DNA of 59,670 bases from assembly GCA_000209815.1 (NCBI GenBank), contig FP929036.1:59739-119408 (forward strand), given 5' to 3'. Below the pieces are notes generated by a model, which was not told the origin of the DNA, did not search any database, and saw nothing but the letters and a program-made list of their open reading frames with translations. The number at the start of each line of letters is the position of its first letter. Within the stretch, counting starts at the first letter, position 1. Below are positions 547 through 18,394 of this stretch, one piece after another. This DNA is from Butyrivibrio fibrisolvens 16/4 (lineage in GTDB: Bacteria > Bacillota > Clostridia > Lachnospirales > Lachnospiraceae). The position numbers and the translations under genes were made by a program.

Positions 547-628
547 ATTATTCTCCCGCCGATAATTATCCCATATCAATTACTCTTCATCACTGATTGC
601 AAAAAAACTTTATACATTATACTATCAA

Positions 629-1831: not shown

Positions 1832-1861
1832 AGCGTATTGCCCTTACTAAACCAAATAATT

Positions 1862-1884
1862 GCGAGAGGATTGAATCCTCTCGC
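1862..1884 (-). terminator. hairpin terminator/attenuator after the WXG100 gene
   Basis: A perfect 10-bp stem GCGAGAGGAT / ATCCTCTCGC with a 3-base loop lies 25 bases after the WXG100 stop. The sequence after it on the minus strand is only moderately T-rich (AATTATTTGG), so it may be a leaky terminator or an RNA-stabilising 3' end. Confidence 0.65.
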
Positions 1885-1909
1885 ATAAAGTGACTGACTA
1901 ATTTCAAAA

Positions 1910-2197
1910 TTAGTGACCAGCAAGCTGATTGTCGATATCGATGATAGTCTCCATACACTTGTTGATGTACTCCTTGAACTCTGTAACTGAGTTAGGGATT
2001 GTCTCCTTAAGAAGCTTCTCATAATCTGTGTGGTAAGTATCCATAGCGTTATCGTAAGCAAAACCTTCCCAATACTCACCGATGCTGTTCATTGTTGAGT
2101 CAATGTTGTTTGCTGCAGAGATAAGGTTCTCAATCTCTGTGTTGATTTTTGAGACGCATGACTCAATGCCTTCTCTTTGTACTCTAGTCTGTGACAT
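1910..2197 (-). CDS. WXG100 family protein (EsxA-like)
   Basis: 95 residues, the standard WXG100 length, starting 8 bases after an AAGGAGG-type site. The predicted helical hairpin has its central turn at YWEG (W43-E-G), which is the W-x-G signature; the C-terminal helix contains DTYHTDYEKLL. WXG100 proteins are small dimeric substrates and co-factors of EssC-type ATPases. It ends the large minus-strand operon and is followed immediately by a hairpin, which fits strong separate 3'-end formation for an abundant substrate. Family assignment is confident; equivalence to EsxA itself is inference. Confidence 0.85.
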   Translation of the reverse strand: MSQTRVQREGIESCVSKINTEIENLISAANNIDSTMNSIGEYWEGFAYDNAMDTYHTDYEKLLKETIPNSVTEFKEYINKCMETIIDIDNQLAGH

Positions 2198-2254
2198 ATT
2201 ATTATCCTCCTTATGTCAAAAAATAATTAATATATATGTAAGCCCTTTCGGGAT

Positions 2255-2565
2255 TTACACATCATAATCAGGAAACGATATGTTATTCGCTTCGTTCTCT
2301 ATTTTTGTATATTCAGTCTCCGCTGTAGATAATATCTCAGCTAATTTATCTAAAGTTACTATGTACTTATCTACATCACTAGTCCAATCTGTATTAACAT
2401 TTTCCATTGCTTTCTTGCCAGCGTCTGTGTTCCAGTCCTGCTCTAAGCCAGCAATTAACTCTAATGCTCTTTTCTTTGAAGTGCTCAATGTGTTCGAAGC
2501 TTTCTCTACTTCTTCCCGCATTTTTTTATCACTTCAACATCAAATTTCAGTTTATTTGGTTCCAT
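2255..2565 (-). CDS. WXG100-like protein (frameshifted)
   Basis: The ATG at 2565 has AGGAGATAATA just upstream, but the frame stops after 19 codons. Restoring one A in the seven-base run (plus strand 2521-2527) gives a 103-residue protein (MEPNKLKFDVEVIKKMREEV...). It is all-helical with DWNTDAGKKAMEN at the position of the WXG turn, so the motif is degenerate (W-N-T). The length, the position between the TPR gene (2 bases) and the WXG100 gene (57 bases), and the paired arrangement suggest the partner of a WXG100 heterodimer. Without the repair the gene would start at the internal ATG (2521) without a ribosome binding site. Confidence 0.7.
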
Positions 2566-2567
2566 TA

Positions 2568-3860
2568 TTATCTCCTAGATTGCAAAATTCGAATCCATAC
2601 TCTTAACTTTTTCTTTTCCTGCTCTGCAGATATCTCATCGCCCATTTCCTTATAAATATGATATTTAAAGGCATGTGAATCTGCTTTTTCTGGATTAAGA
2701 TTTTCAAGATAGTTTGCCATCTCTAAAGCTTTATCAAATTGCTTCAATTCAACATGAGCTAATAATCTAAAAATGTATCCCTCATAAAAAGATGGATCAT
2801 CTATTGTCATTCTTCTAGTACTAACAATTATATTTTCAAATTCCTTATGAGCTTCATCATTTCTATTTAGCTTACTTAATGCAGTAGCATGAAAAAATAG
2901 GGAAGAAGCCTTATATAAATTTATACATTCCATTTTCATCAATGTCCCCGAATAGTCTAGCAACTCCTCATATCTTTCTCTTTTAGCCAAAACATCGGTA
3001 AGTACAAATAAAACATCCTTATCATTTCCTAATTTTTCATTAGTCTCTTTCAATACAGTAATAGCCTCATCAACTTTCATATTTCTTAAAAATAATGTAG
3101 CTTCCTGCATAGCTGACTCTTTGAGTGACTTATCAAAAAGACCTTGCATTTTCATATATTTTATTTGATCTTCGGCCTCTTTATACAAATCTAATTCTAC
3201 TAAAACTCGTAATTTTAATGATGCTAAATTTGAATCAAGGGGAAATCTCTTGCAACCCTTTTCAATAATTTCACGAGCCTCTCGATTTCTGCCTTGCCCA
3301 ATATAAATCTGAGCTTTTAATGAGTATACTTCAAAAGCATCTGGTAACAATCTTTCCATTTCATCAAGACTAACCAATGCCAAATCGTATTTATTGTTTG
3401 CAAGATATATCCTAACTTTAAATAATCTAAGCTCTCCATCTAAAGGTGCAATATCTATAGCTTTATTGATATTTCTAATAGCCTGAATTTCATCATATTC
3501 GCCTAGAAAAATTGTTGCCATTAAAAAATACATATCAGGAGTCCTATAGCCACAAGCCTCAGCCTTATTGAAATACTCAATTGCCTTTACTTTATCCTCT
3601 TTAAGAACATATATACTTCCAATGGAAAATAAAGCTTCACCATTTTGAGGTTCCAGAATTAAAATCTTCTTAAAATTCTCAATGGCCTCATCATGTAAAC
3701 CCATATTGGCACAAGCATTACCTAAATGCGTATACAATATTAGTTCTTTCGGATTATCTATAACGATTTCTTTTAAGCGATTTCTAGCCTCCTCATATTT
3801 TTCTTCAGTCATTAAAGCTATACACTGACTGAGTCTATCTTTAAATTCCATTTCTTCCAT
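2568..3860 (-). CDS. TPR repeat protein in the T7SS operon
   Basis: 430 residues made almost entirely of tetratricopeptide repeats, for example LILYTHLGNACANMGLHDEA, ALFSIGSIYVLKEDKVKAIE and AFEVYSLKAQIYIGQGRNRE. No signal peptide or membrane helix, so it is cytoplasmic. It begins 2 bases after the stop of the upstream membrane-protein gene and ends 2 bases before the next WXG100-like start, indicating translational coupling. TPR proteins are protein-protein scaffolds; here it could be a chaperone/adaptor for Esx proteins or for the LXG-like cargo. No direct evidence separates these options. Confidence 0.75.
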   Translation of the reverse strand: MEEMEFKDRLSQCIALMTEEKYEEARNRLKEIVIDNPKELILYTHLGNACANMGLHDEAIENFKKILILEPQNGEALFSIGSIYVLKEDKVKAIEYFNKAEACGYRTPDMYFLMATIFLGEYDEIQAIRNINKAIDIAPLDGELRLFKVRIYLANNKYDLALVSLDEMERLLPDAFEVYSLKAQIYIGQGRNREAREIIEKGCKRFPLDSNLASLKLRVLVELDLYKEAEDQIKYMKMQGLFDKSLKESAMQEATLFLRNMKVDEAITVLKETNEKLGNDKDVLFVLTDVLAKRERYEELLDYSGTLMKMECINLYKASSLFFHATALSKLNRNDEAHKEFENIIVSTRRMTIDDPSFYEGYIFRLLAHVELKQFDKALEMANYLENLNPEKADSHAFKYHIYKEMGDEISAEQEKKKLRVWIRILQSRR

Positions 3861-3862
3861 AC

Positions 3863-4629
3863 TTAAACCTCAATTTCTTTACTCTTTATATCTTGAAGAA
3901 GATTTGCATAACAATTACTGAATTTAGCTGTGCATTGTTTTCCTTCCTCATTTGTAAATCTAAGAGTAAAAGATTTTTTCCCCTCTCTTTCTATCACAGG
4001 GTTATTTAAAATCAAAAAATTATATCTTTCATTCTGTGTTTCTATACTACATAAGCCATTATTAATTACATTATATCGTAGTAATTTATCTAACAGACTT
4101 CTATCTTCATCCGCAGGTACATAATACTGTCTTTTGCTCTGCGACAATTTGGTCAAAATATCATCCAGAGCTCTAACAAAACTTGCATCATCCTCTCGAC
4201 GATTTCTTACTTCCTTTTCATGCATATGAACATTTATAGCTGCATCGACATTTTGTCCCAAGGTAGCTGATGCCGCTCCTGAATCTACTGGAGCATAAAA
4301 AAAGTCTCTTCTTCACCTGCGCCTATATCACGTTTTGTATAGAGCAATTGAATTGCATACAATTTTCCATCACGTGCCACAAATGCCGTCGATTTGGACA
4401 TATTATGGTCTGCATTTAAATGTAAAAAATAAATTTGTGTAATAAAATAAATTAAAAAATCAAAACACACTATCGCTTTAATATTTGTAATTGAGAAATA
4501 CTTATATATAATTACGTCAATTAATATACTGATTATTATTGAAAGCAAAAATAATGCTATCCAAAATATTTTTATATGTTGCTCTATAAAATCATATTTT
4601 TTTCTTTTACTATAAACTACTTGGCTCAT
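3863..4629 (-). CDS. membrane protein of the T7SS operon (frameshifted)
   Basis: Two overlapping-frame pieces (4629-4285 and 4261-3863) join into one ~255-residue protein if a seven-base T run on the coding strand (plus-strand 4297-4303) has one more base; the join reads ETFFYAPVDSGAAS. The N-terminal third has two hydrophobic helices (about 20-42 and 48-70). The rest is hydrophilic and ends KSKEIEV. It lies 19 bases after the LXG-like gene and 2 bases before the TPR gene. The position directly downstream of a cargo candidate would suit an immunity or membrane adaptor protein; that is inference. No family recognised. Confidence 0.6.
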
Positions 4630-4648
4630 ACATTATCCCCTTAGCAAT

Positions 4649-6012
4649 CTAATAAAAATCGTTACCGTAAATACCTCGCTCAACTATTTTATTAAAATAA
4701 TAAAGTGGTTTAAGAGGCTTAACCATTCCTGTCAAAGTTGAAAGATTCTTAAATAATTTACGCTGTTGCGACTCATCATAATTATCACTGGTATTAACTT
4801 CATGCAATCCTTCAAATGCACCAAATGCCTTGATAAAGTTATTTGCTGTTTTATTAGTATTAAATACTCTTAATACACACTTTCCTAAATTGGTATCAGG
4901 AAGCTTGTATTTAGATAAATCAGATTTATCTAAAAATGATGTCCACGATCCTTTCTTAAGTTTTGTTAAACCATATTTTGATTCAAATCCCATTTCATGT
5001 AATAAGTTATTACAAACATTATCTGCCGAGAACTTATATCCTTCTGTAAACTTGCCTTTATTAACATATTTATCAACTGCATTAGGACCCTTATTATAAT
5101 CGTGAACAACTCCAAGATTCATAATGCTGCAAACAAGCGCTACATCATCTGAAACTTCTTTAGTTAAATCGATTCCATAACCAACATTTTTAGCTGTACC
5201 ATTCTCTTTTTCCCCTCCAAAATCATATTTATCTAAAACGTCACTTATTTTTGTTGAATCACTATAATATCTTGCTGCTCCATCCTTTCCTTCTATATCT
5301 AATTTTATTGCTTTGCCATTTGCACCAATGGTCGCCACAGTATTTCCTATGGTAATAATTGTACCTATTCCAGTAGCTATCAGACCTACAATTCCTATTA
5401 CTAATGGCAATGTCGCACCTCCAGTAACAGGTAATGCTACTATTGCTGCAATCAAACCTGCTATTGCTGCAACTGTTCCAATAACAGCTTTAGCAATTTT
5501 CAAAACATATTTTCCATTCCCATATTTAAACCAATCATATACTTTGCGAACAACAAGTTTTTTTACGTCTTGTAACTGACTATAAAGATTAGCTGCATAC
5601 TTAAATACTCTAAAAATAGCAAATTCATTTGGTATTTCTACGCAGAAGGTATTATAAATCCAATCTCCACATTTCTGTAGCCAATTTCTGTTTCCTATAA
5701 AATTATCAGCAAGAGTATCTATTATAGTTGCTACATTGGAATCTGTGTCTTTAGCAAATTGCTCAAAGTCGGAAACCGTAGTTGCAAAGGTATCGTATGA
5801 AGTTTTTATAGTATTCAAACTTTGAACTTTATTTTTGCTAGATTACCTGCTGTAGAAACATATGTGTTATCATTTGGAGCTGGTACCTTTCCTGAAGGTA
5901 TGGTTATATTATTACCTATCGCATCTATATAATCTTGTATATCCGTAGCTGTTCTTTTGGCACTGCTAATGACATCTTCAAGTACGTTGTATGTAATTGT
6001 TATTTGACTCAT
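4649..6012 (-). CDS. LXG-like large cargo candidate (frameshifted)
   Basis: The ATG at 6012 has GGAGGGAGAATAAT upstream. The first frame (65 codons) ends TAGNLAKIKFKV. Adding one A in the run at 5832-5836 continues it as NLAKNKVQSLNTIKTSYDT into the long downstream frame, giving ~454 residues. The first ~170 residues are helical like T7SS targeting domains. Next comes a Gly/Ala-rich hydrophobic stretch (about 175-245: TVAAIAGLIAAIVALPVTGG, LIATGIGTIITIG), as seen before toxin domains of LXG proteins. The C-terminal ~200 residues (DKYDFGGEKENG, GFESKYGLTKLKKGSW) match no family I recognise. Alternative: two genes with a TTG start at 5818. Confidence 0.6.
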
Positions 6013-6028
6013 ATTATTCTCCCTCCGC

Positions 6029-6457
6029 CTACACTCTGCGATTAGCAGCAGCTGCTGCCTCAGCCGCTCTTCTTGCTTCCTCAGCTTCTGCTGCCTCAGC
6101 TGCGGCAATTTGCGAATTTAAACTTTCTATTTCTGAATTCAATGTATCAATTCTACTCTGACAATGGAGGGATTCTGAATTCAAATTAGAATTTGCATTT
6201 GAAATTCTACTATCAGTATCAGTACTATCCTGCATGGTTCCTTCAATATCACTTATCAAACTAGTTGTTTGACCTTTTAAACCTGACTTGAAACTATCAT
6301 ATAAATATACTATTTCTCGATTTATAGTACCTGGAAAGCTATAAACAATACCATCTATATTACGCATAATATTATCTACAGCATTTTTTCTATTACTATA
6401 TTTATTTCTTAATTCTTCTTTTGAAGCCTTCTGTCTCTTTAACTCAGCAGAACCCAT
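6029..6457 (-). CDS. coiled-coil T7SS accessory protein (DUF5082/YwqH-like)
   Basis: 142 residues, helical throughout. It begins MGSAELKRQKASKEELRNKY, has a heptad-rich C-terminal half (IDTLNSEIESLNSQIAAAEA) and ends in an Ala/Glu/Arg tract. The size, organisation and place directly before an LXG-like gene resemble the small partner proteins (DUF5082, B. subtilis YwqH) that sit beside LXG toxins and help present them to the secretion ATPase. The family name is inferred from architecture and context, not alignment. It lies 15 bases after the WXG100 gene and 16 before the LXG-like gene. Confidence 0.6.
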   Translation of the reverse strand: MGSAELKRQKASKEELRNKYSNRKNAVDNIMRNIDGIVYSFPGTINREIVYLYDSFKSGLKGQTTSLISDIEGTMQDSTDTDSRISNANSNLNSESLHCQSRIDTLNSEIESLNSQIAAAEAAEAEEARRAAEAAAAANRRV

Positions 6458-6472
6458 TTTATACCTCCAAAA

Positions 6473-6805
6473 TTAATATCGATTTTGATCACCTTCTAAT
6501 GCTTTTGCCAACTCCATATCAGCACTTATGTATTGTGCTTCTGCTTCTAAAATTGTATCAGCTATTTTCTCCATATCATCATTAATATCCTTTAATCTTT
6601 GGACAATTACGCGATATTTTTTCATATTCATTTCTTCCCTTACCTAACCAAGTTGGAAGTAGCTTATCCTGCATTAAATCTAATTTGACTTTGAGTTCTG
6701 TCATCGTCTTATAAATTTTTTTCAATTCATTAGCAGTTTCCTCAAATCTACCTGTAAATAAATCAAAATCTTTCTGTGAAAGATGTGTTTTTCATCAATC
6801 GACAT
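6473..6805 (-). CDS. WXG100 protein next to essC (two frameshifts)
   Basis: The ATG at 6805 follows GGGAGAATAAG. Read literally the frame stops after 27 codons. One extra A at 6788-6792 and one fewer A at 6617-6622 give a clean 110-residue WXG100 protein: MSIDEKTHLSQKDFDLFTG, central LPTWLGKGRNEYEKY (W-L-G signature), and C-terminal helix ILEAEAQYISADMELA. The start is 2 bases from the essC stop, so the gene is coupled to the ATPase. Because it needs two corrections it may instead be a true pseudogene, but both lie in A runs like the other suspect sites. Confidence 0.65.
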
Positions 6806-6807
6806 TC

Positions 6808-9800
6808 TTATTCTCCCTCCGTCATCTTAATTCTCTGAATATCTGAGCCATTAAGCAAGTATGCATCTGTAACTTCGAGAGGCTTCATGCTTCTGATAGA
6901 GCCTGATGGAACATCGCAGAACTTAACTTCCTTAAGCTTAGTTGTAGTAATAAGTGCCTTCTTGTTTTCCTTTAATCTCTTCATGATTTCTGGTGCACCA
7001 TAAGGAACTGAAGCATCCTCCAAATCTGTAAATAAGAAGCATACTCCCATATTCTTAAACTGCTTTGTAATCTTGTTATAAGATTCAAGGATAGGCTTGT
7101 TAGAGCAAATGTAATCAATAGCATCTCTGTTGTTGATAACAACCACCTGTAATGGTGAGCTGCCTGTGATTTGCTCCTCCTGCATTAATGCATCGTAACG
7201 CGCCTGACAAATTGCCTCGAGCTTAGTAATGATTTCATCTAATGAGTTGTAATCTGGTGTATATTTTTCAACATAAACCTTATCGCTTAGATACTTTAAC
7301 TCTCTATTAATGTTATCAATTACATAAAGGTTAAAGTTATCATCAAAGATATATGATTCCATAACCGCAAGAATTGACTTAACCACATTTATGCGCTTAG
7401 CATTCTCATTTCCGATTATGCAAAGCTCATTAAATAATGCAAAATCAAGGTTAACAACATCAACATTTGCATAATCAAGAGCAACTGGATAGCTGTAGTG
7501 AGAACGCTTGATAGTGTAGTTGTTCTGGATATAGTCAATTGTTAATGTCTCAGGTATCTCTGGAATTCTACGAGCCTGTACACCTGGATACTGAGCATTA
7601 ATCTCAGCAATAAATTCCTTTACTGCATTAGATCTGTCAATTTCCTTCTCACCTTCAAATGCAAGATATGTCTGAACTTCATAATATGCCTTATCCTTCA
7701 CAAATAATGCACGACCTGCAACCTCCTTAGGCTGCATACGGCAACGCTCAAAGAGAGTGCTGTACTCAGATGTATCATTACACTGAAGAGCAATCTTTCC
7801 AGCAAAGTTTGACATATATTTGTAGCCAAGACCTGATGTAGCAGAATTGGCAAGAATCATATTAATACCGCAGGAAATACCTTCACGGATGAGGAATAAA
7901 AATTCTTCCTCAAATGAATCCATATATAATTCCTTGAAAGCAGCAAAGTTATCAAGGAATACGAATATTCTAGGAATATCAGTAAATCCGCCCTCCTCAT
8001 ATGCAGAGTAAGAGCTGATTCCCAACTTAAGGAATTCCTCTTTTCTATAAGCTATCTGTTCGATAAGGAGCTTGAATAGATTCTTAAGCTTCTCTTCTTC
8101 AGACGCTGTAACAACACCACCTACATAACACAAAGAATCGAAGTTCTTTAAGTACATTGCACCAAAGTCCATAATGTAGATATTGGCTTCCTTTGGTGTG
8201 TAAATGCTTGCAATCTGTCGAATAAGAACCTGAAGTAAATTGGTCTTTCCTGTAGAAGAAGAACCAATAATCATGTAGTTCTCATTTGCCAAGTTGATAC
8301 GTGCCTTACCTTGGAACTGTGAATCTGGATCATCATAAATACCAATTGATACACCAGATTCCTTATCTCCCTTCATATCATCCTCGATAAAGATATTATC
8401 TGATAATGGTGGAAGACAAATATTAGGTAAACGTTGAATATTGGCATTCTTGCAATACGTATTTACGTAATCAACAATTGCCTCAAGCTGTGTTCTTGAG
8501 CCATCTGTATTCTTCTTTTTCTTCTTTTCGAAGACTATCTTTCTTCTACCGCTGTAATCGACCTCCGCTATAGAATATGTGTGTTCACCTGTAGTGCTGT
8601 CCTTCTCTGAGGCTCCACTAAAACCAGACTGTAATAACTCAAACATTTCATTATTACCAACCTGCAAATATGCACGACCAGGCTCCTTAATTTCCGCAGC
8701 AAGAGGTGATTTCAATACCTCATTACTATCCTCTTTTGTTTGAACCTTCAAACAAAGCTTAAACTTTGAGTTTGACCAAATCTGTTCATTAACCTGACCT
8801 GCTGGCTTCTGAGTAGCAAGGATAAGGTGTACACCCAAGCTTCGTCCGATACGGGCTGCTGAAATAAGTTCCTTCATAAACTCTGGCTGATCAGCCTTCA
8901 ACTCGGCAAACTCATCAACGATTATAATGAGATGAGGAAGTGGGGTAGTAACCTGACCACTCTTGTAAAGCTTAATGTACTTATCAATATGATTTACCTT
9001 TGCTTCTCTAAAGAGTGTCTGTCTCTTAAGAAGCTCGGCCTTGATAGACTTCAGCGAACGATCAATTTCGCGACCGTCAATATTTGTAATTGCACCAATA
9101 AGATGTGGTAAATCCTGGAATTGATCCACCATTCCACCACCCTTAAAATCGATGATTACAAAGCTGACTTCGTAAGGATGGAACAATATAGCTGCTGATA
9201 AAATGTAAGTCTGAAGAATCTCTGACTTACCTGATCCTGTAGTACCTGCTACAAGACCATGTGGTCCATGAAACTTCTCATGTAAGTTTAAATCGATTAA
9301 ATCGTTCTTAGAATTTACGCCGATTGGGGCAGCCATTGTCTCCCAAACTCTTGAATTATTCCAATTGTTAAGCAAGTCAATATCATCTACTGAATAGATG
9401 TTTAAAAGTTCGAATAAGCTGATACTCTTTCTAAGTGAGCTTTCCAAGCTTATCTCTTCACAATAAACTGGCTCAAGCATGCTACACACATGAAGCATTA
9501 CTTCATCTGATATATTTGTATGTGTAAATTTAGTTGTATTCTCTCCGTTGTGAGCATCCACATAGATACCATTATTAGCATCTGTAAGCTCAATAACAGT
9601 ATCACAGTATAATGGAATCTCTTTTCTCTTTTCACCAAAGAAAATAAAGCATACCTTAAGATTCTTAGCATTCTCAATAAACTGTGATACAGGATGATTT
9701 CTAATACCCCAATCATCCATTACATAGATAACAAGGTATGGTAAATCCTCACAAGTCTTTCTTGCACTTCTATCTGTTAACTCTCTGTAAAGAGATTCGA

Positions 9801-11323
9801 ATACATTGTTACGAGATTCTGTATTATAAACAATATTTCTCATGCCGTTTGGCTCAGAAATATGTGGAATTTTCTTTGCCCAGATATATTTCTTAATCTC
9901 ATCAACAAGAAGATAAACCTTTACTTCTCCAAAATAGTGTCGGCTTATAGTATCAACCATAAGCACCTTAAGGAAGTCATTATTGGTCACCTTTGTACCA
10001 AGAATACCAACTGCACTACACTCTTTTAAATCTACTGTGATCGGACAGTCTGGAATCATTTCGTTCTCACGCTTGATTTCATCTGGAAGGACTGAAAGCT
10101 CATCTCCTGGCTCTAATGTTTCCTGTTTTTATAATCGATTTCGCGATTAGCCTTGATAGCACCTCTACCAAGATAAAGCTTTAAGAAATCATCATCTCCC
10201 GGCAAGCGATCAAAAAGGTTTATATTGAAATCATTAATTGATTCAATATCCTGATTTGTATCTCTATATGTGTTCTGAAGAATGCGACGTTCCTGAATTC
10301 TAGAATCAGCAATCTCCACCTTCTTCTTTTCGATGTAATCCTGATACTTAACTATTCTGTCTTCACAATCAGTCTTGTATTTTTCTTTGAAGAAAAATAA
10401 GTAACAACTGATGTGATAATACCCATAGACATAGAACATACACTAAAAAGTATGAAACTCTTATTTGAGCTGTTACTCATAAAACCTCTAACAACAACTG
10501 TAAGCGCCAGCATTCCTAATGCTGGCATTAAGGTCATTGCAAGATTCTGTGTTGGCTCAGTAGGCTTCTGAGGTGGAACCAACAAACCAATTGAATCTGT
10601 TGGAACCTCGTATTTAACACGAGTATTACGAGTGAACAATGGATAATTGTTCTTTGTCCTTTGGTCAACAAATTTAAGATTGTTTACCTTCACTCTATTT
10701 GAAGCTTCTGTCCAAATAGATTCATCCTTAAGATAAAACAAGAAATCTGAAATAGAAAAGAAATCTCTATTTTTTAGAACTTCAGCACCACTGGTCTTTA
10801 CTCCATTTTTATAAAAACCGTAAGTAGAAGACTTAACTCTAACAGCGTATCCATCGCTCTGCTTTACAAGCTCTATAGCATCTCCTGTAACGTACTCACT
10901 ATTGACAACAATGTTATTGTCTGCAGCACTACCAATCTTAATAACATTTGCACCAGCAATGCTAATTTCACGTTCAAAGCTACGGCTTGTACTGTCAAAA
11001 TCAACCATATACTCTAATGCAAAAACGTCATTACTAGATTCCTGATACTTAACAAAAAATGTATCGCCATGATTCAACGCTGCTGTGATAAGACGTCTTG
11101 TATCACCAGTAGTAAGGAATACCTTATCTGAACACATAACTGTCCAATCATCATTAGAATTAACAAAATCCAAGCGCACATCATCAAAGAACAAATCCTT
11201 GTCTAAACGAACATCACAATCCTGTGTTGTTCCAACCTTGAAAGAAATTGCATCTGAAGGTAACTCCACTTCTCTATATAGATTTTTATTTGAAATTATA
11301 ATCTTGTACTTGTTGTTCTTCAT
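6808..11323 (-). CDS. essC: EssC-type FHA-FtsK/SpoIIIE secretion ATPase (two frameshifts)
   Basis: Three open pieces form one ~1505-residue EssC after restoring one A at 10380-10384 (join YFSSKKKYKTDCEDR) and one at 10126-10130 (join DYKKQETLEPGDE). Order: two FHA-like domains (1-~230), two membrane helices (~270-315), a linker, then three FtsK-type ATPase modules. Module 1 has an intact Walker A GTTGSGKS (~694) and Walker B LIIIVDEFAEL. Module 2 has GSSSTGKT and a weak Walker B (VFLDNFAAF). Module 3 has a degenerate loop (IGNENAKR). This is the EssC/YukBA organisation of Firmicutes type VII systems, where the ATPase drives export of WXG100 and LXG proteins. It lies between esaB (15 bases) and a WXG100 gene (2 bases). 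Confidence 0.93.
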
Positions 11324-11338
11324 TTCTTATCTCATTCT

Positions 11339-11587
11339 TTAAAAATATATTATACTTCCATCATGAAGCCCATATTCACTTATAAGCTTATTGCCTCTAA
11401 GCAAAGCTATCGGATTTTCTGCCTTCAGATAGCATACCTTTGCATCTGAAGTATCTAATCCTAAATCGTAGGCCTGATTAAGACCAATAACCAGCTCTCT
11501 GGCTGTAATATTAAGCGGAACCTCAATATCAACAGTTTTATTCTGTTCAAGAATATTGAAGGTAATAATTATTTTTCTTCCATTCAA
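11339..11587 (-). CDS. esaB: EsaB/YukD ubiquitin-like T7SS protein
   Basis: 82 residues with the ubiquitin-like beta-grasp pattern of YukD/EsaB: strand (KIIITFNILEQNKTVDIEV), helix (TARELVIGLNQAYDLGL) and C-terminal strands ending LHDGSIIYF. EsaB is a small cytoplasmic regulator/component conserved in Firmicutes type VII loci. It sits between the MinD-like ATPase gene (5 bases upstream) and essC (15 bases downstream), the expected neighbourhood. There is no C-terminal Gly-Gly, so conjugation is not implied. Confidence 0.88.
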   Translation of the reverse strand: MNGRKIIITFNILEQNKTVDIEVPLNITARELVIGLNQAYDLGLDTSDAKVCYLKAENPIALLRGNKLISEYGLHDGSIIYF

Positions 11588-11592
11588 ATCAC

Positions 11593-12651
11593 CTACATAA
11601 CCAAAAATGATATCTTTTTAATATCACGATTCTTGGAGAAGATATTTGCCTCCAAATCAGTTCTATTTACAACATTTGCGATATACTCGCTAATATTGAA
11701 CTTCAATGTACCATTTGGAGTTACAAGCTCGTTGTACTCGGCAGTATTAAATCTATTACAAATGAATACATATTTATCCTGACTGATACCATTTACATTT
11801 GAAACAAAATTGTTTGTTGCATGAACACTACTATAAGACTGGTCTGTAACAACAATAACTTTGTCTGAAATATCTATAAGATTCATCTTCTCTTCGTCAA
11901 AGCAGCTGTCTGTATCAACTATAATAAAATCAAAATCTCCACTTTTCTTTGCAGAAAGAATGATTTTGTGATAGATAGAATACTGTATTCCCATAGAAAT
12001 CAAAGCAGCTTTAAATGCCGGCAGGTAAGCGAACCCTTGATGTCTTATTTCACTCTTTAAATCTATGTAGATATTCTCTGTTGGATTGAGAGCCTTGGCG
12101 TATATATCATATGTACTGATAGGCTCCTTGTTATCCATTAAATATTGGAAATTCTGCATCATAGCTGCATTGATATAAAGCACTCTCTGATAACCATCTG
12201 CGAGACTTGCTGCAAGGCCCATAGCTACCGTAGTCTTACCTACACCACCACTTGCCGATGTAACAACAATAATTTGTGTTTCCTTCTGCTCGACAGCTCC
12301 TTCTGCTAGCTCCTTTGCACATTTAGCAGTGATTTCTCTAAAGATTTCCACAATGCTTGTGTATTTATAAATCTTATTTATACTCAAATCCCCAGTTGAA
12401 CCATCATCCAACTGTTCTGACATAAGAAAAATATTCTTTATATCATGGCGCTTTAAAGAAGAATCGTACAAATCCTCTGATACTATGAGCACCTCCGCAT
12501 TTCTAGGAACAGCAAAATACTCTTCAAAATACAGCTTATCTGTAATGACTTCTATATCAATATTGTTAAAATAATCATTTATAAATTTGTATTGTAGCGG
12601 TGCAATATAATTAATATCTGTATCCGCAATTATTACCTTTGGATTAGCCAT
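11593..12651 (-). CDS. MinD/CpaE-like P-loop ATPase
   Basis: 352 residues. The N-terminal ~120 residues resemble a receiver-like domain as in CpaE proteins (VIIADTDINYIAPLQYKF, NAEVLIVSEDLYDS). It is followed by a deviant Walker A SASGGVGKTTVA (~131-142), the switch sequence LYINAAMMQNFQYL and FIIVDTDSCFDE. ParA/MinD relatives position secretion or pilus machines at the membrane. In this operon it probably places or regulates the EssC complex; that role is inferred from position. No C-terminal amphipathic helix of MinD type is obvious. Confidence 0.8.
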   Translation of the reverse strand: MANPKVIIADTDINYIAPLQYKFINDYFNNIDIEVITDKLYFEEYFAVPRNAEVLIVSEDLYDSSLKRHDIKNIFLMSEQLDDGSTGDLSINKIYKYTSIVEIFREITAKCAKELAEGAVEQKETQIIVVTSASGGVGKTTVAMGLAASLADGYQRVLYINAAMMQNFQYLMDNKEPISTYDIYAKALNPTENIYIDLKSEIRHQGFAYLPAFKAALISMGIQYSIYHKIILSAKKSGDFDFIIVDTDSCFDEEKMNLIDISDKVIVVTDQSYSSVHATNNFVSNVNGISQDKYVFICNRFNTAEYNELVTPNGTLKFNISEYIANVVNRTDLEANIFSKNRDIKKISFLVM

Positions 12652-12660
12652 ACTGCCCCC

Positions 12661-13599
12661 TTAATATACTTTAAATTCACTATTTGCCAAATGAATAGTG
12701 TCTCCGGACTTAATAGGAATCTGCTGTCCCATATCTACCCGATTTCCATTGACGAAGGTTCCATTTGCACTGCCTTCGTCCATAATAAAGAAATTACCAT
12801 TCTGTTTAACAATTCTACAGTGTCTTCGGCTGATTGCTCCATTATATTCGATAGCCTTATCTACAAGATCTGCTTTCTTACCAATGAGCACATCGTTTTC
12901 TGAAATACTTATCTCAAATGGATATGGGGCATCACAAGCTACAAGACGAATGCTTCCTGCGCCTGCCGATGTTGCAGCTTTAGAATTAACTTGATGTACT
13001 GGTGTTGATTCCATTCCTGCAGCAGCAAGCTCAGGTACAATGGCTCTACTCTTTTGATAGATTAAATCCAATGGAATATTTCTATCCTCCACATCGCCCA
13101 CCAGATTTTGAAGCTGTTCTGTTAATCCTCTAGATACACCATTTAATATTTCACAAATAATGTTTCTAACCTCTTCTTCAAAGTCTACAGGCATAGCAAA
13201 AAGCTTTTCTGTAATTGGCACATATACCAGACGAACTTGCTTTGTGTTTGCATCAACAAAAATTCTGTTCTTATCCAATACGATGCTCTGACAAGAAAGG
13301 AATCCATTGGCCTTTACCTTTGTGATACAAGAAAGTATTCCTGCCACAATAGCTATAGCAGTATCTGCTGTCAAACCTGCCATAAGACTCTCAACAGTCC
13401 TATAATCGTTGCCCAGATAACATAAATCTACCAAGCCATTTCTGGTTATCTTCATACACTTAACAAATACATCATTGCTCTGACTTTGAAGCACTTTATA
13501 ATCTGTATCAATAAACGAAGCTGAAGCACTTACTATATATTCAAAATTGTTTCCGCTTTCTATTTCTCTTACTATTCCCTGTTCTATTAAAGTATTCAT
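12661..13599 (-). CDS. DUF6382-like/FHA phosphothreonine-binding protein
   Basis: 312 residues without membrane segments. The first ~180 residues form a domain often fused to FHA modules in Clostridia (DUF6382-like; FVKCMKITRNGLVDLCYLGN, FLSCQSIVLDKNRIFVDANT). The last ~85 residues are a canonical FHA domain: VLIGKKADLVDKAI, SRRHCRIVKQNG and GSANGTFVNGNRV contain the conserved Gly, Ser/Arg/His and Asn-Gly residues that hold phosphothreonine. It lies between the ETTLL-repeat gene (15 bases) and the MinD-like gene (9 bases). It is the obvious cytoplasmic reader for threonines phosphorylated by the neighbouring kinase. Confidence 0.82.
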   Translation of the reverse strand: MNTLIEQGIVREIESGNNFEYIVSASASFIDTDYKVLQSQSNDVFVKCMKITRNGLVDLCYLGNDYRTVESLMAGLTADTAIAIVAGILSCITKVKANGFLSCQSIVLDKNRIFVDANTKQVRLVYVPITEKLFAMPVDFEEEVRNIICEILNGVSRGLTEQLQNLVGDVEDRNIPLDLIYQKSRAIVPELAAAGMESTPVHQVNSKAATSAGAGSIRLVACDAPYPFEISISENDVLIGKKADLVDKAIEYNGAISRRHCRIVKQNGNFFIMDEGSANGTFVNGNRVDMGQQIPIKSGDTIHLANSEFKVY

Positions 13600-13614
13600 T
13601 ATATTTCCTTAAGA

Positions 13615-14148
13615 TTAAATCTGCTGATTACTTCCTGTTATCTTAATGTCATCTTCCATCTGGAAAATGTCACTCACATCAGATAAAAGTGTTGTCTCAT
13701 CACTAGGAGTGAGAAGTGTTGTTTCATCGCTAGGTGAAAGAAGTGTTGTCTCGTCATTACCTGAAAGAAGTGTAGTTTCATCACTACCACTTAAAAGTGT
13801 AGTCTCCTCTCCACCACCTAAAACAGTTGTAGCATCTGTATCTCCTAGAAGAGTAGTTGCGTCATCATCTAACAATGTGGTTGCATCGTTTTCTATCTTT
13901 TTGGTTAGTGTTCCTGATGCGCCCCATGTAAGTGTAGCTTTCTTCTTATCTCTGCCAGCTGATTCTTTACTAAGCTCTTTATTTATTCCCATTCCAGTAA
14001 GAACTCTAAACGAGTGTGGAATCTTTAAAACTATAAATAAAACAACCGATGTGATAAATAACAAAATAGCTACTACTAAGAGAACGATTGCTATGTTTTG
14101 ATAGAGCTGTGTTTGCTCTGTAATTATTTCTACATTTTGTAAATCCAT
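13615..14148 (-). CDS. membrane protein with eight (E/A)TT(L/V)L repeats
   Basis: 177 residues: a short N-terminus, one membrane helix (18-42), a basic linker (43-85), then eight copies of D/E-(E/A)-T-T-(L/V)-L. The first threonines are at 90, 98, 107, 116, 125, 134, 143 and 152, an almost exact 9-residue period. FHA domains bind pThr with a preference for Leu/Ile/Val/Asp at +3, and each first Thr has Leu at +3. Acidic residues before Thr fit PknB-type kinase sites. With kinase and FHA genes on either side, the tail is most simply a multisite phospho-docking platform at the membrane. This function is inference; no family is recognised. Confidence 0.8.
   Translation of the reverse strand: MDLQNVEIITEQTQLYQNIAIVLLVVAILLFITSVVLFIVLKIPHSFRVLTGMGINKELSKESAGRDKKKATLTWGASGTLTKKIENDATTLLDDDATTLLGDTDATTVLGGGEETTLLSGSDETTLLSGNDETTLLSPSDETTLLTPSDETTLLSDVSDIFQMEDDIKITGSNQQI
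13681..13884 (-). repeat. 27-bp tandem repeats encoding ETTLL units
   Basis: Eight degenerate in-frame units (27 bp, the first interval 24 bp) encode the (E/A)TT(L/V)L array. The last five units are nearly identical at the protein level and read ETTLL; the first three read ATTLL, ATTLL and ATTVL. Such direct repeats could change copy number by slippage. Confidence 0.85.
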
Positions 14149-14157
14149 AAAACTACC

Positions 14158-15837
14158 TTACTCTAACATTGAAATTGCCTGCTTTGCCTTTTCTATGTTT
14201 GTGGCAAGCTCCTTTTCCAATTCTATTACTCGCTCTGATTTATCAGGAGCGCTGTCAATATCTTCCTTAACGTGCTTTTCAATATTCATAAGCTGAAGCT
14301 GCATATCCGATGTAGATACACCAGCTTTTTTAAACTGATTTGCACTCATACATATCTGTGATGCCATTTCCTTGTAAATAGCAAGGGCAGTATTTGCATT
14401 ATCAGATTCTGTGATGTTTCCCTTACAAAGAGTAACCAAATCGTCCCAGTAATTCTTGTATGTAACCTGACTATCACCAGTCTTATCAACAGCACCAAGG
14501 TTTACATAATAATCTGCAATAGCACCCAGACGTTTTGCACGCTCCATCTGGTTGTCATTGAGATTGCCTTCTGCTGCCTTCTTAAACCAATATGCCGACT
14601 GCTGCTTATTACCTTCGCCCTCGTAGCTATAGTAATATGCAAGACCAAGTCTGTATGCGAAAAGGCTATAGCTATCCTGATTCTGCGCTAAGATTTGCTC
14701 GTAGGTATTCTTACCGCTTGTTCTAATAAGAATCTCACGAAGCTCCGCTGCCTCATCTTCAGAGAAGTTTTCATCTGCAAGATAAACATTATCAATAAGA
14801 TTAATGTATGAATCCACCTGGGATGGATATACTGCGATAGAGCTAATAAGTGCTTCTTTCGAATCAGCTTCTGTAACACCACGGCTGGCATCTTCAAGAA
14901 GCTTATCGTGATTTACCTGCTGCACATACTTTGCATAATTGTAGCTTGCGAATGAACCGATTCCTGATGCTACTGTGAGGAATGCTGTAGTGAAGAACAC
15001 TCCAAGCTTAAGCTTTTGCTTACGACGATATGTCTCATCAAGCTCATCATAATGCTCAAGCGCAAAAAGAACTTCTTTGCAACTCTGATAACGCTTTTCA
15101 GGATCAAGCTGTGTACACTTCGAAATAATCTGTTCTAATCCTTTAGAAAGCGCCTGATTCCAATAACGAATGTTTCTAATTTCGTAAGGAGGCTCACTAG
15201 GATTCTTGCCTGTAACAAGATGATACATAGTAGTACCAAGACAATATATATCTGTTCTGGCATCTGTCTGGCCATGTCCACCAAACTGCTCTGGTGCAGC
15301 ATAGCCTCTTGTTCCAAGACAGGTTGTATCCTCAAGATTTTCCTCTTTGTACTGACGTGCTGTACCAAAGTCAATAAGGACGATTGTGCCGTCAGGCTTA
15401 AGCATAATGTTTCCTGGCTTTAAATCTCTGTAAATGATTGGTGGATTTTGTGAATGTAAATATCCAAGAACGTCACAAAGCTGTTTTGCCCATTCAATAA
15501 CATATTCCTGTGGCTGAGGACCATACTCATTTACAGCTTTGCTAAGTGTATTACCTTCCACATAATCCATAACAATGAGGATTGAATCCTCATAATCAAT
15601 GATGTCTACGATACTAGGAAGGTTTGGATGGGAGAGATTCTTAAGCATCTCTGTCTCTGTCTTGATGCTGGCCATATTAATCTCTGATGCAGCTGCTGCA
15701 TCTTTACGAATCTCCTTAATGGCCCACTGTTTATTAGCTCTTTCGTTCATAGCCAAATAAACAATACTCATTCCACCCTGACCAATTTTATTTAAAATTT
15801 TGTATTTATTATCTATTACTGAACCAATTTCTAACAT
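14158..15837 (-). CDS. PknB-like Ser/Thr protein kinase, transmembrane
   Basis: 559 residues. The kinase domain (about 12-270) has every key motif: glycine loop GQGGMS (20-25), Lys41 in WAIKEI, YRDLKPGN (Asp138 catalytic, Asn143), DFG (156-158), activation-loop TTC (171-173) and APE (181-183). It is an RD kinase, so activation-loop phosphorylation is likely. A membrane helix (~283-307, LGVFFTTAFLTVASGIGSFA) is followed by a ~250-residue external region with Sel1/TPR-like helices (AYWFKKAAEGNLN) instead of PASTA repeats. It lies 12 bases from the phosphatase and 9 from the ETTLL gene. It probably phosphorylates the ETTLL sites and FHA proteins of this operon. Confidence 0.92.
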   Translation of the reverse strand: MLEIGSVIDNKYKILNKIGQGGMSIVYLAMNERANKQWAIKEIRKDAAAASEINMASIKTETEMLKNLSHPNLPSIVDIIDYEDSILIVMDYVEGNTLSKAVNEYGPQPQEYVIEWAKQLCDVLGYLHSQNPPIIYRDLKPGNIMLKPDGTIVLIDFGTARQYKEENLEDTTCLGTRGYAAPEQFGGHGQTDARTDIYCLGTTMYHLVTGKNPSEPPYEIRNIRYWNQALSKGLEQIISKCTQLDPEKRYQSCKEVLFALEHYDELDETYRRKQKLKLGVFFTTAFLTVASGIGSFASYNYAKYVQQVNHDKLLEDASRGVTEADSKEALISSIAVYPSQVDSYINLIDNVYLADENFSEDEAAELREILIRTSGKNTYEQILAQNQDSYSLFAYRLGLAYYYSYEGEGNKQQSAYWFKKAAEGNLNDNQMERAKRLGAIADYYVNLGAVDKTGDSQVTYKNYWDDLVTLCKGNITESDNANTALAIYKEMASQICMSANQFKKAGVSTSDMQLQLMNIEKHVKEDIDSAPDKSERVIELEKELATNIEKAKQAISMLE

Positions 15838-15849
15838 AAAACTCTATTC

Positions 15850-16641
15850 TTACACTGAGACAATCAGACCTGATATATTGTCTGTCTCTCCTCTTCTAAT
15901 AACCAACTCGGCTAATTTGTTAATTCCGTTTCTTTGTGGAGCAATATCCATTATTTCTTTTGCTTCCAGCTTTCTCCAAAGTCCATCTGAGCAAAGAAGG
16001 AAATGCTGGTTCTTTTCTATTGTGCCTGTGAAAAACTCTGGAATAACTGTTTCTGATGCACCTATACATTGCAACAGCATGCTCTTTTTATCACTGGCAT
16101 TTGCTTCCTGCGCAGACATTCTTCCAAGTTCTAACTGCTGCTGTACATAGCTATGATCGTGTGATATCTGCTCCATCTGTCTTTTAGTAAACTTGTATGC
16201 TCTAGAATCTCCCACGTTCATGGTCAAATACTTATCGCCAATAATGATGATAGCCACCACTGTAGTACCAAGGCGCATCCCTTTGGATACGCCATAGTCT
16301 TTGATTCTATCATTCATTTCCTGTACAAGTTTCTTCCACTGACCTTCTACCCTCGAAAGAAGAAGGACTGCTGGATGCTCATTCTGTTTACCATTTAATG
16401 GCTCCGTTGCATTGGGATCTGAGAAAAGATATGGCAGCTCTTGTCTGAACCAACTATCCATTCTGTTAACAAAAGCAGAACTAGCTACTTCTCCACAAGA
16501 TAATCCGCCCATTCCATCACAGAGGATACCCATGCATATATTTCCAACTCCGTTAACCTTGGCCTGTTTAATAACTAGGGCATCTTGATTAACATTTTTC
16601 CTAACACCTTTATCCGAATAGGCATCTACTTTAAAACTCAT
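15850..16641 (-). CDS. PP2C-type Ser/Thr phosphatase
   Basis: 263 residues, the usual size of bacterial PPM/PP2C phosphatases. Metal and catalytic motifs are in order: NQDALV, CDGMGG, LGTTVVA, NVGDSRAY, SHDHSYVQ, LLCSDGLW and TDNISGLIV, so it should be active with Mn/Mg. No signal peptide or membrane helix. It precedes the kinase gene by 12 bases and follows the pseudoprotease-FHA gene by 10. Kinase-phosphatase gene pairs act on the same substrates, so this enzyme should reset phosphothreonine marks in the locus. Confidence 0.92.
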   Translation of the reverse strand: MSFKVDAYSDKGVRKNVNQDALVIKQAKVNGVGNICMGILCDGMGGLSCGEVASSAFVNRMDSWFRQELPYLFSDPNATEPLNGKQNEHPAVLLLSRVEGQWKKLVQEMNDRIKDYGVSKGMRLGTTVVAIIIIGDKYLTMNVGDSRAYKFTKRQMEQISHDHSYVQQQLELGRMSAQEANASDKKSMLLQCIGASETVIPEFFTGTIEKNQHFLLCSDGLWRKLEAKEIMDIAPQRNGINKLAELVIRRGETDNISGLIVSV

Positions 16642-16651
16642 AATCTACTTC

Positions 16652-18253
16652 CTAGGCCTGAAACTCAAACTCTTCATTTGAAAACTTAATGCAGTCTCCA
16701 TCATTTAAAAGAACTGAACGCTCGCTCTCAATCTTTGTTCCATTGATGAAAGTACCATTTGTAGAATTGCAGTCCTGAATATATGTACCATTTCTACCGC
16801 TTGTAATCTTTGCATGCTTTCTACTAATAGAGCTGTTCTTTTCGATGCAATAGTCTGAGTGTAAGGCATCCTTACCAATAATAAAATCTGATTTGTTAAG
16901 AGAAATTCGCTCTGATGTTCTCTTTCTAACAAGTGTTCCTAAATTCTGAGGAGCATTAAGCTCTCCGCTAAGTAATGTTGTCTCGCCATCCTCAGATGCT
17001 GGTGCTGCACTTAAAATAGTTGTCTCATCGCTAAATGAAGTCTGCTGCATTGGCTGCACCCTCTGTGGCTGTGCCATTGACATCACATTGCTACGCTGTG
17101 GTGTAGCACTTCTTGTAACCTGAACTGGGTTATTAGGAATATCATCAAAATCAAATACCGGTCCATTGTAAGTCTTTGACTGCTTAATCTTTTTCTCCTG
17201 CTTAACTGCCTTTGGCTTATCAGCCTTTGGAGCATCACTTCTGTCTTTGTTTACAAAGTAAAGGATAAGACCTGCAACACTACATACTACAACGAATACC
17301 GCTACAAGACTTAAAACGATAATCATAGTCTCTGAAATGCCCTTTTTAGGCTTTGCAACTGGTTCTGGAACAGTTGGCTCTGCCTCAGTCTCTTCAGTAG
17401 CATCCTCTTCAACTGCCTCCTGTGACTTTGGTGAGCTATTAGCCTGTGAATATGACACACCAAGACCATCTAAAATCTTTGCAATCTTTGTTGAATCTAA
17501 AGCAAGGCTGTTTTCACCATCCTGCTTTGGAAGATTCATACCAATAACATATCCGTTTTCATCAACAAGTGGACCACCATAATTGTTATAATCTGTGGCT
17601 GCATCACTTTCGACTACCTGAACCCCATCAACTGTTGTAAGGGATTTAATCTGACCAGCTGCTGACTGAATCTGCTGATCTGAATAATATTTTGTATCAG
17701 AATTGTAATAAACTAATTCTGGATAACCTAACGCATATACGGAATCACCTGCTGCATAAGGAAGATTATTCACGTCATACTGTTTATTCGTTAATAACTT
17801 AAGTGGTGTTCTTGTGTAGATTGGCTGTGGCAACTGAAGCACTACCATATCTAACTCGCTGCTTGATGTAAGAACTGATGCATTTAAAACTACATCGCTT
17901 TCAATTACAACCTCTGTAGCAATTGTGAGATTGATTGTAGAATCTTCACCATCTGCAGTTACTCCATAATACTCACACGCATCACTTAATGTCTCTTTAC
18001 TAGGCTCTACAATATGCTTGCTTGTAATAACATATTCTGTACCTTCTGGATCACCGATTAGAAAACCAGTACCTCCAATAACAACGCTCTTTTCAGAATT
18101 ATCATCTACGATAACTGTGTTAACCTGTACTACGCCCTGCTTTGCAACATCAGCTCCTGAGCCATTTGTGTCTGCAGCCTCCACTGATGCTACTGGTGTC
18201 AGTACGATTCCCAAGGCAATCGCAAATGAACATACTTTTTTTAATGCTTTCAT
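16652..18253 (-). CDS. transmembrane trypsin-like pseudoprotease with cytoplasmic FHA domain
   Basis: 533 residues: signal sequence (1-27), external trypsin/HtrA-like domain (~35-265), Glu/Pro-rich spacer, membrane helix (309-334), basic linker and C-terminal FHA domain (~450-530; FIIGKDALHSDYCI, SRKHAKI, NSTNGTFING). His80 (TSKH) and Asp135 (ELDMVVL) of the triad remain, but the catalytic serine is replaced by Tyr225 in NNYGGPLV, so proteolysis is not expected. The linker carries two kinase/FHA-type motifs, DETTIL (~409) and GETTLL (~423). The topology suggests a receptor that senses an external peptide and reports through pThr/FHA contacts. It is the first gene of the operon. Confidence 0.85.
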   Translation of the reverse strand: MKALKKVCSFAIALGIVLTPVASVEAADTNGSGADVAKQGVVQVNTVIVDDNSEKSVVIGGTGFLIGDPEGTEYVITSKHIVEPSKETLSDACEYYGVTADGEDSTINLTIATEVVIESDVVLNASVLTSSSELDMVVLQLPQPIYTRTPLKLLTNKQYDVNNLPYAAGDSVYALGYPELVYYNSDTKYYSDQQIQSAAGQIKSLTTVDGVQVVESDAATDYNNYGGPLVDENGYVIGMNLPKQDGENSLALDSTKIAKILDGLGVSYSQANSSPKSQEAVEEDATEETEAEPTVPEPVAKPKKGISETMIIVLSLVAVFVVVCSVAGLILYFVNKDRSDAPKADKPKAVKQEKKIKQSKTYNGPVFDFDDIPNNPVQVTRSATPQRSNVMSMAQPQRVQPMQQTSFSDETTILSAAPASEDGETTLLSGELNAPQNLGTLVRKRTSERISLNKSDFIIGKDALHSDYCIEKNSSISRKHAKITSGRNGTYIQDCNSTNGTFINGTKIESERSVLLNDGDCIKFSNEEFEFQA

Positions 18254-18374: not shown

Positions 18375-18394
18375 CAGCAACATAATTATTTAAC

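Follow-up and report, generated by a model that had tools for sequence, protein, structure and literature searches.

In this study, we analysed a window of 59,670 nucleotides from Butyrivibrio fibrisolvens 16/4 (contig FP929036.1, bases 59739-119408 of a single-contig genome of 3,164,379 bases), in which 15 minus-strand genes at positions 1910-18253 combine a clostridial type VII secretion system (T7SS) with genes for phospho-signalling. Four of them, namely J (DUF6382 and FHA domains), V (TadZ/MinD-like ATPase), B (EsaB), and C (EssC), form the secretion core, while a phosphatase (F), a Ser/Thr kinase (D), and a membrane protein with a repetitive tail (K) represent a signalling cassette, F-D-K, accompanied by a pseudoprotease with an FHA domain (P) and a large Ig-like surface protein (I) encoded upstream. 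Our preferred reading, with a probability of about 0.48, is that phosphorylation would gather EssC at a patch of the membrane. D would sense the state of the envelope or a contact via its C-terminal helical domain and would phosphorylate repeated [DE]-T-x-V/L-L sites on the cytoplasmic tail of K and in the linker of P, to which the FHA domains of J and P would bind. The kinase-like domain of J would hold EssC via the degenerate EssC FHA domains with no phosphate needed, as YukC/EssB does with YukB/EssC in T7SSb, and EssC would be collected where K, P, and I reside, with V helping to place it and the phosphatase F resetting the state.

An earlier sequence-only reading, made from the letters and their translations, had described a T7SS-like locus fused to a complete phospho-signalling circuit. 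All genes that it named are present on the minus strand within these limits, and the operon does comprise a set of writer, eraser, reader, and candidate acceptor, the ETTLL tail of the latter being conserved and repeated.

Genome organization of the core genes

The genes on which the reading is based are given below; the closest named relative, used for comparison, is Pseudobutyrivibrio sp. 49 (locus L087).

6808..10059, minus strand: EssC (TsxC), ATPase piece in a third frame; NCBIfam TIGR03928, 1007 bits vs a cut-off of 778
10113..10439, minus strand: EssC, middle piece in a second frame; matches residues 314-403 of L087 EssC
10352..11323, minus strand: EssC, N-terminal piece in a first frame, with degenerate FHA region and membrane part; matches residues 1-315 of L087 EssC
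11339..11587, minus strand: B, EsaB/YukD (TsxB); Pfam YukD, 35.6 bits vs a cut-off of 27
11593..12651, minus strand: V, TadZ/MinD-like ATPase (TsfV-like); Pfam AAA_31, E 5e-14
12661..13599, minus strand: J, DUF6382 pseudokinase-like domain plus FHA domain (TseJ/TsjJ-like); both above Pfam cut-offs
13615..14148, minus strand: K, one predicted membrane helix and a tail with 8 T-x-[VL]-L motifs (TseK-like); based on an N-terminal profile and tail statistics
14158..15837, minus strand: D, Hanks-type Ser/Thr kinase with a long helix and a helical C-terminal domain (TsxD-like); Pfam Pkinase, E 7e-51
15850..16641, minus strand: F, PP2C/PPM phosphatase (TsxF-like); Pfam PP2C_2, E 6.5e-11, and an NCBIfam Stp1-type match (E 3e-48) below its own cut-off
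16652..18253, minus strand: P, with N-terminal hydrophobic segment, trypsin-like pseudoprotease, membrane helix, linker, and FHA domain; Trypsin_2 and FHA above Pfam cut-offs
18395..22753, minus strand: I, Ig-like surface protein of 1452 amino acids (TsxI-like) in an upstream unit; Pfam Big_3_3, E 2e-11, C-terminal membrane helix at 1423

With these scores, EssC, though spread over three frames, was recognised as a membrane ATPase of the EccC/EssC type and B as a YukD protein of T7SSs, in agreement with the identities proposed from the sequence alone. The genes are transcribed in the order P, F, D, K, J, V, B, C, hp, LXG-like, X2, X1, TPR, A2, and A, and because the gaps from P to C measure 5-15 bp and terminator-like hairpins lie at both ends, 1910-18253 is plausibly a single transcription unit. 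As the whole hairpin scan revealed 9 sites vs 7.3 in shuffles, only two hairpins, chosen by stem length and place, were used:

1861..1885, minus strand: terminator-like hairpin 3' of gene A, 11 pairs
18343..18382, minus strand: terminator-like hairpin between I and P, 18 pairs

Gene I belongs with the set, though it lies upstream of the second hairpin. In Pseudobutyrivibrio sp. 49, the order I>P>F>D>J>V>B>C>a>hp>LXG>TPR>a>a was found as well, with K between D and J, which is more than chance would give. Identities to this relative amounted to 93% for D, 73% for F, 71% for P, 66% for V, about 62% for K, 59% for J, 55% for EsaB, about 50% for the ATPase part of EssC, 35% for its FHA part, and 29% for the TPR protein. 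The value for D in comparison to about 50-73% for neighbouring cassette and T7SS genes may reflect special constraint or a recent exchange.

Kinase D and the repeated motif in the tail of K

The catalytic residues K41, Y136, D138, N143, and D156-F157-G158 of D were nearly invariant in an alignment of 11 rows, and D has the residues expected of an active Hanks kinase, with HRD reading YRD. Its structural model (pLDDT, i.e., predicted local distance difference test, of 82.3) matched Stk1/PknB best, and the 50 matches listed were kinases. The C-terminal part is helical in the model, probably lies outside, and revealed a weak match to Sel1 (E 0.0014).

K is predicted to span the membrane once, with the tail side probably cytoplasmic. 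A profile built from the membrane helix and juxtamembrane part only, with seeds chosen by place and polar tails, detected 14 K proteins in EssC loci. The strict motif [DE]TT[LVIM][LVI] had been tried as a family signature and rejected, since no open reading frame (ORF) beyond the window had at least two copies in 36 loci (L037-L072); the wider T-x-[VILA]-[LM] was therefore used, which was picked after the tails had been seen and subjected to separate held-out checks. The 14 tails contained 52 such motifs, whereas 2000 shuffles gave 5.0 ± 2.1 (maximum 14); position -2 was acidic in 37/52 motifs and position -1 was Glu in 30/52. Among 34 tails from genome searches, which include three repeats of earlier loci (L204, L205, and L212, corresponding to L043, L142, and L055) and six tails already inspected (L154-L159), 33 had the motif, adding up to 123 copies vs 8.8 ± 2.9 (maximum 21, 1000 shuffles); single K tails carry up to eleven. 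K of the window and K of L087 differ in their spacers and in the number of repeats but keep the TT[LV]L cores. This pattern makes the ETTLL tail a candidate acceptor that is both repeated and conserved.

The motif was not confined to K. Two ETT[IL]L copies are located in the P linker of the window, and P linkers before the FHA domain had the motif in 15/17 cases and in 12/13 of a held-out set (16 copies vs 1.6 ± 1.2), as did 8/17 held-out linkers of long J proteins (16 copies vs 2.1). Control families showed no clear excess of the acidic form, the least favourable being EsaB with 70/1000 shuffles as high. In addition, the pattern DT..LG[TS] in the activation loop was present in 56/58 kinases linked to K, compared to 4/35 other kinases in EssC loci, so that the tail motif resembles the activation loop of the kinase itself; part of this pattern is owed to common descent of the kinases.

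Two further observations concern K-like tails. The C-terminal 30 residues of many K proteins contain a similar hydrophobic peptide, e.g., V-x-I-H-T-D/E-E-x-I (loose pattern in 33/60 ORFs, locus repeats included), possibly a second docking site. In Clostridium sp. KNHs214, a kinase is neighboured by a K-like protein (L081:5337-5867) whose tail repeats T-x-[VL]-L nine times and which the N-terminal K profile missed.

The kinase could also control transcription instead of assembly of the machine, as IreK does with the T7SSb of Enterococcus, for which IreK-dependent T7SS expression is mentioned in the discussion of PMC11217815. We consider this improbable, since no transcription-factor family scored above cut-off among the operon proteins (HTH_19 in A2 was below it) and the candidate acceptor arrays are situated on membrane-anchored proteins adjoining FHA proteins.

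FHA signatures, the DUF6382 domain, and proteins V and P

The signature S-[RKN]-x-H was found in 60/68 J and 17/17 P proteins, but in just 5/97 EssC N-termini. The N-terminal EssC piece of the window, which matched Pfam FHA in one stretch (25.3 bits vs a cut-off of 20.7), did not contain it upon inspection of the sequence. EssC FHA domains as phospho-readers, as the sequence-only reading had assumed, were thus rejected; judged by this signature, they probably do not read phosphothreonine. The FHA domain of J matched GarA and OdhI, and no membrane helix was predicted in J.

For DUF6382, structure prediction yielded a protein-kinase fold from which the conserved catalytic residues are absent. 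EssB/YukC was not found in the whole genome (PF10140, best E 0.28), and the predicted fold makes DUF6382 a candidate for an EssB-like protein. EssB was absent among the 50 matches listed in the structure search with DUF6382/J, most of which were FHA domains. DUF6382 as a marker of T7SSs was rejected, as it occurred in 145/150 Lachnospiraceae genomes. Prepilin-peptidase and TadE genes were frequent in the surroundings of its 30 top matches (141 ORFs: 30 DUF6382, 17 Peptidase_A24, and 14 TadE).

The earlier label of V as a MinD-like ATPase can be refined: the hidden Markov model of the V family matched ATPases of the Tad pilus loci L070, L199, and L200, so V groups with the TadZ-like ATPases of such loci. 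The L199 ATPase bears the TadZ-like_ARD domain, to which V itself had no Pfam match. Relatives of both J and V sit in the Tad locus of the same genome (L070, 2,660,000-2,679,000), which also encodes a T2SSE-type ATPase and TadE and in which the DUF6382-FHA gene is split in two frames.

In P, the Ser position of the trypsin-like triad is occupied by Tyr, which is why the label pseudoprotease was right. Ser was missing in 17/18 aligned P-type proteins of EssC loci, window P included, while His-Asp-Ser was kept in 8/11 P proteins of further cassette loci, several of them near more distant EssC. In this lineage, the pseudoprotease appears to be derived.

Distribution of the F-D-K cassette

For the analysis of gene neighbourhoods, 32 YukD loci of Lachnospiraceae and 80 named EssC loci were reduced to 97 unique EssC of at least 1300 amino acids, the broken EssC of the window not being counted. 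These loci, many of which are cut by contig ends, held B in 77 cases, V in 60, J in 55, a D-type kinase in 40, F in 27, I in 26, P in 15, and K in 11, and K never occurred without the kinase. In 35 named loci with 8 kb on both sides, the numbers were 33 for B, 27 for V, 25 for J, 18 for the kinase, 11 for F, and 7 for K. J-V-B-C is the commonest core, and the addition of kinase, phosphatase, K, P, and I to it varies from locus to locus.

Searching with the K profile revealed 7 clear K genomes, the own genome included, among 291 genomes of the class. Counting was restricted to E under 1e-13; overall, 12/291 genomes matched, of which one hit was part of a 676-amino-acid protein (G170) and four others (E 2.6e-4 to 8.8e-4) were excluded. 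Among 397 Lachnospiraceae genomes, 60 had K. At 46 fetched K loci, the labelled gene adjoining K was the kinase in 46/46, with F in 45/46 and I in 38/46. At 11 of them, EssC was part of the stretch or at most 15 kb away (inside the stretch at 4, relabelled after detection on the same contig at 7), Tad genes were found at 11, and neither at 24, some of the latter stopping at a contig end.

The cassette therefore invites a different explanation, namely that F-D-K-I is an independent device for envelope signalling that happens to be near EssC and acts on I, the cell wall, or Tad pili and not on secretion. In addition to the 24 loci with neither context and the 11 beside Tad genes, no EssC was found in 19/42 cassette genomes searched (16/36 of the 60 K genomes, searched at E <= 1e-30, and 3/6 further cassette genomes, with FtsK-like matches only), a share that leans high because three genomes with EssC already seen beside K (G722, G808, and G095) are outside the 42. 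The context also switches repeatedly on the kinase tree (58 rows, with L098 on a long branch of unsure placement): EssC context changed 9 times and Tad context 7 times, vs means of 18.2 and 10.3 in shuffles, with at least 8 and 7 changes, respectively, forced by starred branches. The context thus shifted several times over, though fewer times than shuffles would give. The hairpin that parts I from the operon fits this explanation as well. On the other hand, the cassette was associated with YukD over 150 Lachnospiraceae genomes (12/29 vs 18/121, odds ratio 4.0, p = 0.003; the window genome is among the 12, and the 29 K-bearing genomes assume that all 150 were in the 397-genome set), where YukD misses some EssC genomes (G002, G012, and G148 have EssC and no YukD match). 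Moreover, D, F, K, and P share one tightly spaced operon with J-V-B-C, and the order is kept in L087. All in all, an independent device appears less probable than a role in gathering EssC, though clearly not negligible.

Individual loci illustrate this variability. In L165 and L169 (with upstream L199 and L200), PilD-J-F-D-K-I follow TadZ-like, T2SSE-type (TadA), and T2SSF-type genes on the same strand. In G175 and G330, EssC, J, and P (plus V in G175) are on a different contig from F-D-K-I, while G626, a member of the same genus, harbors two F-D-K cassettes (L232 and L233), each with P and a single-frame EssC nearby. Taken together, the context counts and the YukD association indicate that the cassette is linked to, and not part of, type VII secretion. 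The "fusion" proposed earlier is hence retained as an association, while its tight form is not, with the cassette near EssC in just 11/46 loci. The sequence-only reading had named a separation of these genes from essC in related genomes as a finding that would speak against it, and with the cassette often apart from EssC, this applies in part.

Frame breaks and state of the secretion system

EssC extends over three reading frames and the LXG-like candidate substrate gene over two (5815-6003 and 4649-5818). EssC of L087 is a single frame of 1509 amino acids and aligns end to end with the three pieces of the window, which indicates two breaks in EssC with no missing block. A decayed, non-functional T7SS of which only the cassette is still used would account for these breaks and is compatible with the other readings, which concern intact relatives. 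Further splits were seen in the same genome: at L071 (3,117,000-3,136,000), where another EssC-like gene lies together with genes for a kinase, FHA, and TPR proteins, EssC and the kinase are each split over frames, as is the DUF6382-FHA gene of the Tad locus. However, that unrelated genes are split alike and that the three break regions of the window contain short A or T runs of five is what assembly indels would produce; EsaB, V, J, K, D, F, and P are all in single frames, and L087 as well as a further genome of the genus has an intact EssC. We therefore regard decay as unlikely, though somewhat less so than control of transcription; the breaks may be real mutations or assembly indels.

Points against the proposed gathering of EssC by phosphorylation

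Apart from the frequent occurrence of the cassette without EssC, several results weigh against the reading that phosphorylation gathers EssC. Since EssC and the LXG-like gene are frame-broken, this strain may no longer have a working system. In 45/68 J and 13/17 P proteins, Lys replaces the usual FHA arginine (IGR), so phosphothreonine binding by J and P is not assured. The profile comparison of DUF6382 with EssB was weak (hhalign E 0.015, probability 3%, in register), and that with the active kinases D was nil. Single tails need not stand out, as those of L098 and L131 showed no excess and that of L211 had no motif. No motif excess was seen in short J proteins of the window type (4/43 linkers, 4 vs 5.8) or in the stretch after the kinase domain (15 vs 11.3), while the bare motif, not its acidic form, was in excess in V (76 vs 38) and, mildly, in F (24 vs 16).

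Further genes of the operon

The remaining genes lie downstream of EssC in the direction of transcription.

1910..2197, minus strand: A, WXG100-like, 95 amino acids, final gene of the operon; Pfam WXG100, E 0.0024, 18.5 vs a cut-off of 27.3
2255..2521, minus strand: A2, WXG100-like, 88 amino acids; Pfam WXG100, E 0.00017, 22.2 vs a cut-off of 27.3
2568..3860, minus strand: TPR protein, 430 amino acids, recurrent EssC neighbour; Pfam TPR_19, E 9.5e-22
3863..4261, minus strand: X1, 132 amino acids; no Pfam match, similar ORF at L069, elsewhere in the genome
4285..4629, minus strand: X2, hydrophobic, 114 amino acids; no Pfam match, similar ORF at L069
4649..5818, minus strand: LXG-like candidate substrate, C-terminal piece of 389 amino acids in its own frame; resembles ORFs beside EssC in relatives
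5815..6003, minus strand: LXG-like candidate substrate, N-terminal piece in the other frame; frame break seen directly
6029..6457, minus strand: hp, Lap-like helical-hairpin partner, 142 amino acids; weak LXG/YwqH-like matches, recurs after EssC

Three WXG100-type proteins had been proposed from the sequence alone. Two of them, A and A2, are WXG100-like with scores below the cut-off, while the third, hp, revealed only the weak LXG/YwqH-like matches. Small proteins resembling A adjoin EssC in relatives, and TPR genes neighbour EssC in 33/97 EssC loci. The C-terminal LXG-like piece had no Pfam domain above cut-off. X1 may, as a guess, be an accessory or immunity protein; the X1/X2-like ORFs at L069:5302-6039, near a stretch of N, are perhaps accessory or immunity genes for LXG-like proteins. 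Downstream of the operon, another LXG/WXG-like gene of 537 amino acids was detected (window 1-579, L069:13708-15318), with small unknown genes behind it.

Comparison with known systems

The T7SSc to T7SSj types were described by Garrett, Higginson and Palmer in 2024 (PMC11217815), and the following comparison refers to the passages of that survey on these types. Both T7SSe and T7SSj have a kinase (D), a phosphatase (F), a DUF6382-FHA protein (J), a tail protein (K), and an Ig-like protein (I), whereas T7SSf has the TadZ-like V and no kinase. In common with T7SSj/T7SSe, the window has EssC with an N-terminal FHA region, EsaB, WXG100-like proteins (here with scores below the cut-off), the membrane kinase D, the PPM phosphatase F, J, a K-like single-helix protein with an unstructured, probably cytoplasmic tail, and the large Ig-like I. 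It differs by the addition of the TadZ-like V and the pseudotrypsin-FHA protein P, and also in the EssC FHA phosphothreonine signature, which is conserved in T7SSe/T7SSj according to PMC11217815 and was absent in window EssC and rare in related EssC. Of the T7SSj set (A, B, C, D, F, I, J, and K, without H and with a TPR-like outer part of D), counterparts of A, B, C, D, F, I, and J were seen. T7SSe has two single-helix tail proteins, H and K, compared to one seen in the window; since TseH and TseK are described alike in PMC11217815, the name K is provisional, and the tail protein could equally answer to TseH. With T7SSf, whose EssC FHA phosphothreonine motif is partly conserved, the window shares A, B, C, F, J, and V; it is set apart from T7SSf by its kinase and by a J without a predicted helix, in contrast to two membrane helices in T7SSf J. 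The window system is thus a member of a published kind, while its combination of a T7SSj-like set with V and P is unlisted in these passages, which also describe neither repeats in K nor a kinase fold for DUF6382.

T7SSb (Bacillus subtilis Yuk, Staphylococcus Ess) shares EssC and EsaB homologues with the window and has EssB/YukC, in place of which the window genome shows an active-looking kinase. The pseudokinase-FHA contact of T7SSb is the model for a J-EssC contact: in the part of PMC9600267 concerned, the YukC pseudokinase binds the YukB FHA domains, apparently without phosphorylation. According to that paper, E. coli lacks a typical Hanks kinase.

FHA readers comparable to window J are known from GarA, OdhI, and FhaA with PknB/PknG in Actinobacteria. 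These systems use TT-containing acceptor motifs with one or two sites and regulate metabolism or wall synthesis, unlike the repeated acceptor-like array on a membrane-anchored tail seen in the window. Tad pilus loci of Clostridia share J-like DUF6382-FHA proteins and TadZ-like V with the window, as well as F-D-K in the 11 cassette loci mentioned, and have a pilus ATPase and prepilin peptidase where the window has EssC and WXG100-like proteins.

In the literature searched, DUF6382 appeared in PMC11217815 only (subscription papers being mostly outside that search), as did T7SSe/f/j, and ETTLL and ETTVL were not found as whole words. TadZ with FHA domain led to PMC11217815 and a bifidobacteria gut-model paper only, and the Tad pilus together with FHA, protein kinase, and Clostridia to PMC11217815 only among the matches listed. 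A combined search from 2024 on resulted in PMC11217815 alone, and multivalent FHA contacts in secretion led only to work on human TIFA. PMC12599244 on pseudokinases treats EssB, and DUF6382 was not found as a word in its text.

Implications

The idea of phospho-control of T7SSs, on which the sequence-only reading was centred, was already in print, being raised as a possibility in a passage of PMC11217815. Within the reach of these searches, the acceptor array, the predicted pseudokinase, the combination of components, and the cassette shared with Tad loci appear to be new. How kinases, phosphatases, and FHA proteins work in the new types, and whether the Tad neighbourhood of some T7SSs has a meaning, were questions that the 2024 survey did not answer in its passages on these types. 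Our results give a concrete candidate acceptor motif, separate plausible from implausible FHA readers, and propose a replacement for EssB, with one cassette adjoining both machines, T7SS and Tad. We tentatively suggest, with a little less confidence than for the gathering of EssC itself, that F-D-K may be a portable clostridial phospho-scaffold which FHA adaptors would plug into T7SSs or Tad pili, and that DUF6382 may be a hitherto unrecognised pseudokinase that replaces EssB and links adaptor and machine.

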